A stretch of 39,439 bases of DNA from a virus. Location of the stretch: IMG/VR virus record IMGVR_UViG_3300028398_000010, positions 1-39,439 of that record. One strand, written 5' to 3'. Position 1 is the first letter of the stretch. Each line of letters starts with the position of its first letter. This document shows, one piece after another, positions 26,022 through 34,100 of this stretch. A program made the position numbers and the translations under genes. Under the pieces are notes generated by a model, which made no database searches, was not told the origin of the DNA, and saw nothing but the letters and a program-made list of their open reading frames with translations.

Positions 26022-26429
26022 TTAAAATGGAATATCATCGTCATCAATGTCTATTTCGGGCGGTAGCGTTTGCTTCGGAGTGCTCTGATTGCTAACGCTG
26101 CCCTGATGATTACCAGCTGGCTTGCTATCAAGCATCTTAAAGCTCTCTACTACGATCTTGTGCTTATTTCTCTTTTGCCCGCTCTGATCTGTCCATTGGT
26201 CGAGGCTTAACCGCCCTTCGATCAGCACCTTGCTCCCCTTTTTTAGATATTGATTGAAAATCTCGGCTTGTTTTCCAAAAAGAGTGAAATCTATGAATAG
26301 CGTATCCTCTTTATCCTTATACTTATGCGTCGTAGCTATCCCGCAACTCACCACCGCTGCCCCGCTTGGCAGATATTTCATCTCTGGCTCTCTCGTTAGA
26401 TTTCCGACTATTATCACTTTGTTGTACAT
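26022..26429 (-). CDS. ssb: Single-stranded DNA-binding protein
   Basis: 135 residues with a complete OB fold: MYNKVIIVGNLTREPEMKY at the start, IDFTLFGKQAE, LKKGSKVLIEGRLSLDQW, then a Gln/Asn/Ser linker and the acidic tip DDDDIPF, which recruits replication and repair partners. Aromatic and basic residues for DNA binding are present. It protects ssDNA during phage replication and recombination. The C-terminal tip is intact, so it should work with host or phage repair enzymes. Confidence 0.95.
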   Translation of the reverse strand: MYNKVIIVGNLTREPEMKYLPSGAAVVSCGIATTHKYKDKEDTLFIDFTLFGKQAEIFNQYLKKGSKVLIEGRLSLDQWTDQSGQKRNKHKIVVESFKMLDSKPAGNHQGSVSNQSTPKQTLPPEIDIDDDDIPF

Positions 26430-28760: not shown

Positions 28761-29621
28761 TTACAAAATATCTTCCATCTTAACAGGCTCTTCGCCTAGC
28801 CATACCAAGCACATATTCAATGCCTTCAAGCGCCATTCTGCTTCTTCACTGCCTTTAGTAAATTCTTCATTATTCCAAAAGTCATTTTTCCATTCATTAA
28901 TAGTTCTTTCATAACAACCTAATTTAATTTTTTTAACATCACTGCCGTCAAATACTGGTTGGGCATGATACTTGTAAAACAAACCAAAAGAGTAATGACC
29001 GCTATCTGTTTTATAGTTCCCTTTAATAATTGTCCTACAATGAACCGCAACATCACCATAAACCTCAGCGTTACCGTAGATTTTAGCATTGTCAAAAATT
29101 TTAGCGTTATTATAAACCTTAGCAGTACCAAAGACTCCAGCGCTGCCCAAAACTTTAGCGTTACCTGAAACACTAGCGCTACCTAAAACTTCAGTATTAC
29201 CATAAACTTCAGCGGAGTTAAAAATTATGGCATTATCGTAAACTCTAGCATTACCATAAACTTTAGCGTAGTCAAAAACTCTAGCGGAGTTAAAAATTAT
29301 GGCATTATCGTAAACTCTAGCATTACCATAAACTTTAGCGTAGTCAAAAACTCTAGCGCAACCAAAGACTCTGGCATTACCGAAAACTGTAGCGTTTCCA
29401 TGAACTCTAGCACCGTTAAAAACTCTAGCATTACCATAAACTTTAGCGTAGTCAAAAACTCTAGCATTTTCGCAAATCCAACAATTACCGTCATGGGACA
29501 AGTTATGCTCTCCTGAAACACAACCCCCTAAATCTCCCTTCTTTACATTTGCGAAACTTCGTAAAGCTTTAATGCGGTATAGATGCTGAATATCACTTTT
29601 TACCAACTCGTATTTTCTCAT
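28761..29621 (-). CDS. Left-handed beta-helix (hexapeptide-like repeat) protein
   Basis: 286 residues. An N-terminal 45-residue region (YRIKALRSFANVKKGDLGG) is followed by dozens of 6-residue units of the form [NS]-A-[RK]-V-[YF]-[GD] (about 48-205), characteristic of a left-handed beta-helix. A C-terminal domain of about 80 residues follows. Similar proteins are widespread in phages and annotated as polymer-forming or hexapeptide proteins; no catalytic acyltransferase His is obvious. The coding DNA contains an exact 72-bp tandem duplication (29211-29354). Confidence 0.7.
   Translation of the reverse strand: MRKYELVKSDIQHLYRIKALRSFANVKKGDLGGCVSGEHNLSHDGNCWICENARVFDYAKVYGNARVFNGARVHGNATVFGNARVFGCARVFDYAKVYGNARVYDNAIIFNSARVFDYAKVYGNARVYDNAIIFNSAEVYGNTEVLGSASVSGNAKVLGSAGVFGTAKVYNNAKIFDNAKIYGNAEVYGDVAVHCRTIIKGNYKTDSGHYSFGLFYKYHAQPVFDGSDVKKIKLGCYERTINEWKNDFWNNEEFTKGSEEAEWRLKALNMCLVWLGEEPVKMEDIL
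29211..29354. repeat. Exact 72-bp tandem duplication in the beta-helix gene
   Basis: 29211-29282 and 29283-29354 are identical, base for base. The unit encodes 24 residues, or four 6-residue turns, so the reading frame is kept. With no differences between copies, the duplication is recent, probably from slippage or unequal recombination in the repetitive gene. Confidence 0.9.
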
Positions 29622-31548: not shown

Positions 31549-31572
31549 TTTTCTACACTAACAATAATATGG

Positions 31573-31678
31573 TATAATTTCCATGACGGTTTTTCTTTCC
31601 TTTTCCGTCTATATTTTAGGGAGCTCCCGCTGACAAACGCATAGCCTCTGTCGTAGTTTCGTCACGCTATGCTTTTTT
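31573..31678 (+). ncRNA. Candidate short RNA (or leader) with its own terminator
   Basis: TATAAT (31573-31578) is followed by about 60 bases with a GGGAGCTCCC palindrome (31619-31628), then the stem GCATAGC (31639-31645)/GCTATGC (31666-31672) and a T6 run (31673-31678), a classic rho-independent terminator. A transcript starting near 31585 would be about 94 bases. A 16-codon frame from ATG 31583 could be a leader peptide, but the ATG would be at or before the start of transcription. The HTH gene begins after the terminator. Confidence 0.45.
31639..31678 (+). terminator. Rho-independent terminator
   Basis: Seven-base stem GCATAGC/GCTATGC with a 20-base loop, directly followed by six T on the + strand. 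Additional A-T pairs just outside the stem can extend it. It would end rightward transcription before the HTH gene, or act as an attenuator for it. A TACAAT box at 31682-31687 could then serve as a separate start for the HTH gene. Confidence 0.7.
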
Positions 31679-31705: not shown

Positions 31706-31945
31706 ATGAACCAATCAAAACAAATCCTCAATCACATGCTAAAAGGCCACTGCATCACCCAGCTCGACGCCGCTAATCTGTTTGGGTGTTGGAGACTCGG
31801 AGCGCGGATATATGATCTACGTGAAGCCGGCTTCACAATAGAAAGCGAAACGGTCAAGAACGGCCGAAAACGATACTCCAAATACTACATGACGAAAAAA
31901 GAGATAGCACGGGCTAAAGAAAAGCTAAAGGAAAAATTGATATAA
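31706..31945 (+). CDS. Helix-turn-helix protein (HTH_39 type)
   Basis: 79 residues from ATG 31706, with AAAGGAAAAA upstream. QILNHMLKGHCITQLDAANL, then FGCWRLGARIYDLREAGFTI: the pattern typical of the HTH_39 DNA-binding domain in phage genes, where IT...A...FG...L..RI.DLR.AG is the core. The C-terminal half is strongly basic. It probably acts as a regulator or replication accessory. The earlier in-frame start at 31679 lies in the preceding terminator region and lacks a ribosome-binding site. Confidence 0.7.
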   Translation: MNQSKQILNHMLKGHCITQLDAANLFGCWRLGARIYDLREAGFTIESETVKNGRKRYSKYYMTKKEIARAKEKLKEKLI

Positions 31946-31952
31946 TTGTATT

Positions 31953-32288
31953 GCAGTAGTTGAGAGTTGTGTGGTGCGGAGGGGGAGTCCCCCTCCAAAC
32001 TTGTGCTTTTTTCCGAGTCGCAAGTTTTTTAAAGAGTTTCTTGCGATTCGGCAGAGAGTATATTCAATCTGTTTGAGAAGGGGGAGGGTCCGCAGGCTCG
32101 CCACTCGCCTTAATCTTCCTCCCTCTTTTCAAGCGGATTGCAGAACGGGATTAGCAATTCCACAAGGCGCGCAGCCAAAGGTTTGTCCAGCACCTTATAT
32201 CAGCGCGTCTTCTGGAGCGGCTAAGTATGATATTGAAGCTGGACACTTCTTGTATCTCCGCTTACTTCTACGTCCAGAAAGAATTTAC
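31953..32288 (+). ncRNA. Structured element, likely a novel non-coding RNA or RNA leader
   Basis: About 335 non-coding bases with an unusual density of helices. Helix 1: 31978-31985/31989-31996, 8 GC-rich pairs. Helix 2: 32013-32024/32040-32051, 12 pairs. Helix 3: 32065-32088/32117-32140, 24 consecutive pairs. Helix 4: 32164-32172/32203-32211, 9 pairs. All seven non-Watson-Crick pairs in helices 2-4 are G-U in the + sense. Long-range GGTGC (31973-31977)/GCACC (32190-32194) is possible. GCTGGAC (32238-32244) can pair with GTCCAGC (32185-32191) or, by six bases, with GTCCAG (32272-32277). TATAAT at 31941-31946 would start it near 31953. Confidence 0.6.
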
Positions 32289-32963
32289 ATGATTAACCAT
32301 TTTGATGCTGATATAGCAAAAAAAGTTGGGGTTAATGCTGCTGTTATATTCCATAATATCTTGTTCTGGTGTGAGAAAAATAAGGCAAATGAGATTCATT
32401 TCTATGACGGCAGATATTGGACATACAACAGTATAAAAGCATGGCGTGAATTATTTCCATACATGACAGAAAAGCAAATAAGGATAGCCTTAAATAAACT
32501 AAAAAAAAATGGTTATATTGTAACAGGAAACTATAATAAAAGCGCTTATGATAGAACTACTTGGTATTCCATAACAGGGCAAATGGATTTGCCCCAGAGG
32601 GCAAATGGAAGTGTCCAAAAGGGCAAACCTATACCAGATAATAAACCATATAATAAACCAAATATAAATAATACCGTCAAGGCCGAAACGAGCATTGAAG
32701 GTCTGAATAGCCGAGATGATAAGAGCTATCCAGAGAACTTGAACATGGAAGCGTTTAAGATGTGGTGCGAATACAAAGGAAAGAAGTACACGAAAAAAGG
32801 AAAGACGCTAAGTGCAAATAAGCTTGCTAAGTTTCCAAAAGATATTCAGATGAAAATGGTGGAAAATTCAATCATGAACAATTACGCTGGTCTATTTGAG
32901 ATTTCGGATAAGAAAGAAAAGACATGCGGATCTGACTGGTATGACTCTCCGGAGTATCAGTAA
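32289..32963 (+). CDS. Phage replication protein (N-terminal winged-helix type)
   Basis: 224 residues from ATG 32289. Residues 1-100 (MINHFDADIAKKVGVNAAVI, then YWTYNSIKAWRELFPYMTE and a DRTTWYSITG motif) are typical of phage replication initiators with a winged-helix domain. The C-terminal part (about 150-224) resembles the DnaD/replisome-organiser tail that contacts helicase. The reading frame is open further upstream, but the structured element occupies that region. The ribosome-binding site is weak (AGAAAG) and lies near the GTCCAG arm, so the RNA may regulate its translation. Confidence 0.75.
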   Translation: MINHFDADIAKKVGVNAAVIFHNILFWCEKNKANEIHFYDGRYWTYNSIKAWRELFPYMTEKQIRIALNKLKKNGYIVTGNYNKSAYDRTTWYSITGQMDLPQRANGSVQKGKPIPDNKPYNKPNINNTVKAETSIEGLNSRDDKSYPENLNMEAFKMWCEYKGKKYTKKGKTLSANKLAKFPKDIQMKMVENSIMNNYAGLFEISDKKEKTCGSDWYDSPEYQ

Positions 32964-33298
32964 TGGATACGCATGGCTTACTTGCAATAGAAAGAGCAGT
33001 ACTATCTACTGTTATTTACTCTGAAGACTTTGGTATTGAATTAAAATTTAGATTAGAAGAGAAGTATTTCCTTCATAAATACAACGCTCACGTAGCTAAA
33101 ATTCTGCGAAAAGCCATCGATAAAGGGGTAAGCCTATCTTTGACCGCTTTAAAGCTTGACGACGCCGTTAGAGGCTCCTATTGGGAGATAGATCATCTAG
33201 AGATACTATCAGCTAATCCATTGCCTACCGAAATAGCCACACAGTACTATAAAGAGTTAAAAAAAGAATACATCAAAAGGGAGGTGCGACTTGTCTGA
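32963..33298 (+). CDS. DnaB helicase N-terminal domain as a separate protein
   Basis: 111 residues, the size and helical pattern of the DnaB N-terminal domain: IERAVLSTVIYSEDFG, then FLHKYNAHVAKILRKAIDKG, and ANPLPTEIATQYYKEL at the end. In ordinary DnaB this is followed in one protein by linker and RecA-like ATPase. Here the ATPase is a second gene in another frame. Starts at TAATG overlap. It would form the N-collar of the helicase and contact primase or loader. Confidence 0.8.
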   Translation: MDTHGLLAIERAVLSTVIYSEDFGIELKFRLEEKYFLHKYNAHVAKILRKAIDKGVSLSLTALKLDDAVRGSYWEIDHLEILSANPLPTEIATQYYKELKKEYIKREVRLV

Positions 33299-34100
33299 AA
33301 TACTGCACGCATTAAACCAGAAAATAGCCAAGCTTGAAGCTATGAAGCGCGAGCTTGTAGATGACCATATCGAAGCAGAGAGACTCATATCACTTAAAAG
33401 AAGAGTGGCTGCAAAACCAAAGAAGCCTAAATTTTCTACAGGGATAGAGTTTTTCGACGAAAAAATGAACGGAGGCTTTACGGAGGGGTCGTTCGTAAAC
33501 ATAGCCGGCGGCAATTTTACAGGCAAAACTCATTTTGTTTTAACAGTGCTTTCGAATATTTGTAAATACAGAGAGGTGCTTTTCTTTAGTTTTGAAATGT
33601 ACGAAAACCTTATACATGAACGCACTAAGCACTTCACCGACGAGCAGTCAAACAATTTTCTTATAGAGCAGACTCATACCGATATAAACGATATAGAGGC
33701 GATGGTAAGACAGTATAGCAATAGAGGCGTGGACTTTTTTGCGATAGACAGCAGAATGAAGATCGTGGTGCCTGGGTTGAAAGAGGAATATCAAAAAAAC
33801 AGTGAAATATCACGACGGTTATCTAAACTGACACAAGAAACAGGGGCAATAATAATACTCATAAATCAGATAAGTGAAGCTGATCTTAGGAACAATAGGC
33901 CGAGCCTGAAGGGAAGTGGAGATCAAGCCTATGATTCCGACGTAACGCTATTCATATTGCCGCATAAAGATGACATAAACCGCCGCGTTATGATATGCGA
34001 AAAAGACAGGATAAACCAAAAGAAATGGAAGCACGAGTATACTCTATCGGACTTGACGGAGAGCAAAATAGAAGTAATTGAATTTCATAGCCCTATTTAA
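33291..34100 (+). CDS. DnaB-type helicase ATPase domain, split from N-domain
   Basis: 269 residues. The N-terminal 45 residues are a helical linker; then a RecA-like core with Walker A GGNFTGKT (73-80), Walker B-like FAIDSR near 148-153, and IIILINQISE (motif H3 region). Replicative hexameric helicase. Starts with TTG at 33291, eight bases before the stop of the N-domain gene, with GGGAGG seven bases upstream. Frame differs by +1 from the N-domain gene. Two proteins together equal a normal DnaB. Confidence 0.85.
   Translation: MSEILHALNQKIAKLEAMKRELVDDHIEAERLISLKRRVAAKPKKPKFSTGIEFFDEKMNGGFTEGSFVNIAGGNFTGKTHFVLTVLSNICKYREVLFFSFEMYENLIHERTKHFTDEQSNNFLIEQTHTDINDIEAMVRQYSNRGVDFFAIDSRMKIVVPGLKEEYQKNSEISRRLSKLTQETGAIIILINQISEADLRNNRPSLKGSGDQAYDSDVTLFILPHKDDINRRVMICEKDRINQKKWKHEYTLSDLTESKIEVIEFHSPI

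Follow-up and report, generated by a model that had tools for sequence, protein, structure and literature searches.

The region directly upstream of the replication gene, rep, in virus record IMGVR_UViG_3300028398_000010 (39,439 bases, the whole of which was analyzed and is called the window here) looks like a folded RNA, with four strong hairpins and a predicted pseudoknot. It spans positions 31953 to 32288 of the plus strand, and its fold energy, a window scan, and a count of G-U against A-C pairs mark it as a structured RNA, which we read as the 5' leader of the rep operon. We give about an even chance to the view that the element acts in cis to control translation of Rep, by way of helix 4 and the pseudoknot; translational control appears to be the best of the mechanisms that we considered.

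The rep gene (32289 to 32963, plus strand) encodes a 224-residue replication initiation or helicase-loader-like protein, which matches PHROG 11233 (E value, 5e-44) and PHROG 6493 (E value, 5e-21). It is followed, on the same strand, by two ORFs that correspond to the N- and C-terminal portions of a DnaB-like helicase and then by genes for a DEAD-type helicase and a methyltransferase. The DnaB-like helicase is seemingly split between two overlapping genes (32963 to 34100; an N-terminal part of 111 residues and an ATPase part of 269 residues), and the same split is present in relatives L075 and L076. Upstream of the element is an HTH_39 winged-helix gene (31706 to 31945, plus strand; Pfam E value, 4e-15); elsewhere in the window, a minus-strand gene at 28761 to 29621 encodes a protein with very strong matches to PHROG 7964 and PHROG 5070, both of unknown function, and a YdcK-type β-solenoid. 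The alignment of Rep to its homologues begins at the ATG at 32289, and the open frame that runs back from there to 31971 is therefore taken to lie upstream of rep. The Shine-Dalgarno sequence of rep is weak (AGAAAGAA, 32277 to 32284).

Transcription of the element and the rep operon would start from an extended −10 promoter, TGATATAAT, at 31938 to 31946 of the plus strand, with a presumed start near 31953; this site includes the TATAAT at 31941 that had been noticed in an earlier reading of the letters alone (the sequence-only reading). The motif TGNTATAAT occurs 10 times in the window versus 2.8 expected, and bare TATAAT is not enriched. Four plus-strand helices, described in the same reading as having 8, 12, 24, and 9 pairs, were all recovered. 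Helix 1 has 8 bp and the loop AGT (31978-31985/31989-31996). The 12-bp core of helix 2 (32013-32024/32040-32051) is extended by 10 more pairs (32002-32011/32053-32062), giving a helix of 22 bp with one mismatch, a 15-nt loop, five G-U pairs, and no A-C pairs over 32002 to 32062. Helix 3 (32065-32088/32117-32140, spanning 32065 to 32140) is uninterrupted over 24 bp, with a 28-nt loop and again five G-U and no A-C pairs. Helix 4 has a 9-bp core (32164-32172/32203-32211) and in full comprises 19 bp in three blocks (5+5+9) with a 30-nt loop, spanning 32151 to 32224. The seven imperfect pairs in helices 2 to 4 are indeed all G-U (one, five, and one), and when the helix extensions are included the count in these helices rises to 12 G-U and 0 A-C.

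The element folds at −135.2 kcal/mol, compared with −100.3 ± 5.8 kcal/mol for dinucleotide shuffles (z = −6.0; none of the 100 folded as well). The top three plus-strand 120-nt segments of the phage, after correction for GC content, all fall inside the element (z = −4.7, −3.7, and −3.5), and the minus strand of the same segments gave z values of −2.3, −0.5, and −0.4. Stems were also found with a strand-symmetric score, which treats G-U and A-C alike and so avoids the bias of RNA folding toward G-U. By this count, the ratio of G-U to A-C is 11:1 in the element (binomial p of about 0.003) and 51:58 in bases 1 to 31000. The excess of G-U over A-C makes it likely that the plus-strand RNA is under selection, with single-stranded plus-strand DNA as a lesser alternative; the plus-strand RNA structure put forward in the sequence-only reading is thus supported both by the fold z score and by this ratio. 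That reading had also named conservation as protein through 31971 to 32288 as evidence that would count against an RNA. The open frame there has a codon score of −0.169, like out-of-frame DNA (the 5th percentile of real genes is 0.041), and no protein match to it was found, so we reject it as protein coding.

The 3' domain of the element can probably form an H-type pseudoknot. The sequence-only reading had pointed to two alternative partners of GCTGGAC (32238), at 32185 and 32272, and both pairings hold. Extended to GCTGGACA (b', 32238 to 32245), it pairs over 8 bp with TGTCCAGC (b, 32184 to 32191) within the loop of helix 4; as CTGGAC, it pairs over 6 bp with GTCCAG at 32272 to 32277, directly 5' of the weak rep Shine-Dalgarno sequence. 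Six further pairs, between ATATCA (32197 to 32202) and TGATAT (32228 to 32233), may extend the pseudoknot helix. There are five copies of GTCCAG in the 39 kb, counting both strands, three of which are inside the element, and the two-partner layout arose in 31 of 4,000 shuffles of the region, or in 15 of 4,000 at this length (p of about 0.004 to 0.008). As modeled, the H-type arrangement joins a 9-bp core stem and a second helix of 8+6 bp with no gap between them. One loop is 11 nt long, and the last would be 16 nt if lower helix 4 is unpaired, as it would have to be, because full helix 4 leaves a link of only 3 nt to the pseudoknot helix. The predicted pseudoknot (32164 to 32245) outscores the other candidates within 350 nt upstream of rep (p = 0.015 versus shuffles), and its score of −34.1 is the strongest among the plus-strand candidates listed for the window. 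The minimum-energy fold, which is nested, pairs b' with 32272 to 32277, not in the pseudoknot, and buries TGGAG at 32213 to 32217.

This TGGAG is contained in the 3' arm of helix 4, with a predicted unpaired probability of 0.03 to 0.08. It is the sole good Shine-Dalgarno-like site there, 9 nt 5' of the ATG of a possible 21-codon leader ORF, MILKLDTSCISAYFYVQKEFT (32227 to 32292, plus strand), whose TGA stop shares bases with the start codon of rep (ATGA). The ORF is short, and its codon score is in the zone where coding and noncoding sequences overlap. Although each of these features is weak alone, taken together they suggest translational coupling to rep. We propose that helices 1 to 3 would serve as a rigid, probably nuclease-resistant 5' part, while the 3' domain of helix 4 and the pseudoknot would overlie translation initiation. 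Helix 4 would conceal the Shine-Dalgarno sequence of the short leader ORF, whose stop falls on the start codon of rep; GCTGGAC would alternate between the helix 4 loop, in the pseudoknot, and the GTCCAG beside the rep Shine-Dalgarno sequence. Ribosomes, a protein, or an RNA might shift this balance and permit efficient synthesis of Rep, which would otherwise be low or delayed.

The main rival to this reading is a transcription attenuator, which we consider improbable; here most of the RNA would end after 75 to 80 nt, at an alternative hairpin, and read-through RNA carrying helices 2 to 4 would set the level of the replication operon. The hairpin in question (AAACTTG..CAAGTTT followed by a T run; 31997 to 32030, plus strand) is terminator-like by prediction, and it excludes helix 2 yet is predicted to be able to form earlier during transcription: in stepwise folding, RNA grown to 32030 forms helix 1 and the hairpin with the T run first. 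The same order is found upstream of the HTH_39 gene, where the promoter-like TGGTATAAT (31570, plus strand; the first of the mapped features upstream of the element) is followed after about 95 nt by a GCATAGC/GCTATGC hairpin and six T (31639 to 31677, plus strand), and several of the related leaders described below have a stem and then a T run. With −10.3 kcal/mol and a high A-T content, however, the hairpin is modest; helix 2 cannot be a normal antiterminator, because it is not complete until RNA beyond the U run has been made, and helices 3 and 4 would be left unexplained. In its own right, the segment at 31570 to 31678, in which a second TGNTATAAT precedes the HTH_39 gene, is a candidate terminator-like leader or small RNA heading the rightward early operon. 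Its hairpin (31631 to 31676) was rejected as a pseudoknot of the kind predicted before rep, having short stems and deviant loop lengths, and was retained as terminator-like only.

Rather more doubtful is a processed or independent noncoding RNA that would act in trans on host or phage targets, released for instance by RNase III at the helices of 22 to 24 bp. Helices 2 and 3 are of the length of RNase III substrates, and the element is very stable and has a promoter-like −10 of its own. No terminator was found between the element and rep, the sole terminator-like hairpin (ending at 32030) being internal to the element; since no terminator parts the two, a 5' leader fits better than a free-standing noncoding RNA. 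The only function-like features that we detected, the leader ORF and the pairing partners, moreover touch the rep start. The sequence-only reading, which spoke of a noncoding RNA or an RNA switch, is therefore partly supported: a plus-strand RNA does lie upstream of rep, and a two-partner switch is a plausible prediction, but the element is most likely a leader and not an independent RNA.

A DNA element, whether a replication origin or a set of inverted repeats bound by a protein, in which GTCCAG would be an iteron, would account for the position next to rep, the clustering of GTCCAG, and the long inverted repeats; we consider it very unlikely. Duplex DNA is not expected to show a bias toward G-U over A-C on one strand, even if in single-stranded DNA, too, G-T is the milder of the two mismatches; better origin candidates are the AGGGCAAATGGA repeats, spaced at 22 nt, inside rep (32573 to 32632). 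It is this strand bias, together with the lambda O-type repeats within rep, that makes a DNA origin the less likely reading. The AGGGCAAATGGA-type repeats lie in the linker of rep and are likely a lambda O-type replication origin; pseudoknot-scoring repeats were seen about 400 to 490 nt into rep in L010, L011, L017, L018, L024, L025, and L032. A decayed, functionless mobile or inverted-repeat insert would agree with the finding that related phages have no homologue here (the next gene directly follows HTH_39 in L004 and L075), but a decaying repeat should gather A-C and G-U mismatches equally, where 1:11 was found, and we regard this as the least probable explanation.

For the preferred reading of the element as a cis-acting leader, plasmids offer well-known cases of folded-leader control of a replication initiator, and T4 gene 32 does so among phages. 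The leader pseudoknot of the gene 32 mRNA of phages T4, T2, and RB69 binds gp32 in autoregulation (PMC3014915). Resembling that system, the element has a predicted pseudoknot in the 5' leader of a phage DNA replication gene, tens of nucleotides upstream of the start, where it would likewise be linked to control of translation. There, however, the gene encodes a single-stranded DNA-binding protein (SSB), whereas here it is a replication initiator, as judged by PHROG matches; the SSB gene of the window is at 26022 to 26429, on the strand opposite to rep. The element also differs in having no run of A+U-rich repeats over the ribosome site, and in adding three long hairpins and a possible leader ORF. 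The rep leaders of IncIα, IncB, and IncL/M plasmids are described as carrying a stem-loop with a pseudoknot, as for repZ of ColIb-P9 (Asano and Mizobuchi 1998, as cited in PMC10724649), and a leader peptide, RepJ/repI, is encoded in a plasmid rep leader (PMC5304414). The likeness lies in a loop predicted to pair downstream in a pseudoknot, in a structure that would mask the signals for translating an initiator gene, and in a putative leader ORF that overlaps the start of rep. The differences are that this is a phage and not a plasmid, that the initiator belongs to an unrelated family (PHROG 11233/6493), that the pseudoknot partner is inside the leader ORF, and that no antisense RNA promoter was found on the opposite strand. 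Specifically, no convincing promoter was seen opposite helix 4, with no extended −10 or sigma-70-like site nearby on the minus strand; weak ones are possible. In outline the element would work as these leaders do, but because rep is neither an SSB gene nor of the plasmid Rep family, and no antisense promoter was found, it falls outside both the T4 gene 32 and the plasmid leader classes.

No DNA homologue of the element was found in phages or among the compared replication loci, so that none of its pairs has support from covariation. A search with the 17-mer AAGGTTTGTCCAGCACC gave 12 matches, all in unrelated contexts; 8-mer searches with Rep and HTH_39 for close relatives gave distant ones only, and a terminase search gave one relative at 94%, a 5.2-kb contig without rep, from sample IMG 3300026510. 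As the sequence-only reading had supposed, no known RNA family was recognized: no Rfam 15 family (among them GOLLD, ROOL, 6S, RNase P, wcaG, and plasmid counter-transcripts) matched the window at its gathering score, and the best subthreshold matches were at chance level. One of these, wcaG RNA (RF01761), resembles the element in that TGGTGCGGA is followed by a G-rich hairpin (18.4 bits), but the cutoff is 42 bits, and the second hairpin and the TGGCGAGCC, or a close variant of it, of the retrieved wcaG copies are absent from the element. We rejected this identity as chance; 31 matches from a pattern scan share the wcaG arrangement, unlike the window. Those 31 virus contigs (L084 to L114), from the one scan, carry clear wcaG RNA copies (TGGTGCGGATGGGG..CCCCGC..TGGCGAGCC or close variants). 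The skipping-rope RNA (RF02924), a pseudoknotted RNA, was considered for the related leaders and dismissed, as its model matched neither the window nor any of 11 related records at E ≤ 10.

Leaders of comparable form were sought in 51 loci encoding relatives of Rep, with a pseudoknot test that was corrected by shuffles and restricted to upstream regions; the whole-locus list of pseudoknots was not used, because its entries were split evenly between the strands and came mostly from GC-rich coding DNA. Pseudoknot-forming repeats at p ≤ 0.01 versus shuffles were present within 350 nt upstream of the rep relative in 9 of the 51 loci, compared with 5 of 50 in the next 650 nt upstream and 0 of 50 downstream of rep. 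Long stems were found in L035 (14 and 13 bp), L037, L038, L039, L044, L062, L002, and L003, and queries with HTH_39 or the helicases added L004, L075, and L082. Across 17 such related regions the strand-symmetric count gave 31 G-U to 9 A-C, and several of these leaders come after a TGNTATAAT. The compared loci vary in loop lengths and in how their stems are ordered, and in the majority no pseudoknot was detectable.

The long-stem pseudoknot-forming leaders occur in unrelated phages (L035, 2147 to 2216; L037, 2227 to 2286; L038, 2773 to 2850; L039, 2689 to 2747; L062, 10 to 109; L075, 746 to 821; L082, 1950 to 2024), where they head replication or antirepressor operons; no Rfam match was obtained for the five that were scanned (L035, L037, L038, L039, and L062). 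L038 and L039 share a 29-codon ORF that ends on the rep start as TAATG, with two of three differences synonymous; the product of this ORF, just upstream of rep, is hydrophobic (MTKWLMRVTDNFPLIKNILV(N/Y)ILCKIKGI). A scan of the subfamily for further relatives of the L038 leader returned just these two.

Covariation was seen in Burkholderia phages BcepMigl, CSP3, DC1, and BcepIL02, in which gp20, two genes 5' of the rep homologue, is preceded by a pseudoknot. Both of its crossing helices covary, in a comparison of four sequences only and with one stem that is also terminator-like: 11 of 33 pairs are changed on both sides, and 96.8% of cells pair, versus 30 to 49% paired and 0 to 2 two-sided changes when the partners were slid by 1 to 3 columns. 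The related loci and this covarying example suggest that such leaders are common. Tentatively, the long-stem pseudoknot leaders may constitute an unrecognized class of RNAs heading the replication operons of tailed phages of many hosts, fast evolving in sequence but retaining their topology and controlling initiator synthesis, of which the one in the window would have three extra hairpins. Should pseudoknot leaders prove frequent upstream of phage replication genes, timing of phage replication at the RNA level would extend far beyond the small number of cases described. The Burkholderia (Lessievirus) pseudoknot (L122, 806 to 915; also L125, L126, and L127) has a T-rich tail, and no feature is annotated there in the records. 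The Vibrio phages L118, L128 to L131, and L119 retain, before rep, a promoter-like site of the TGTTATAAT type, a hairpin that resembles a terminator and has compensating stems, and ATCAACGAAAGGATTATAGCATG.
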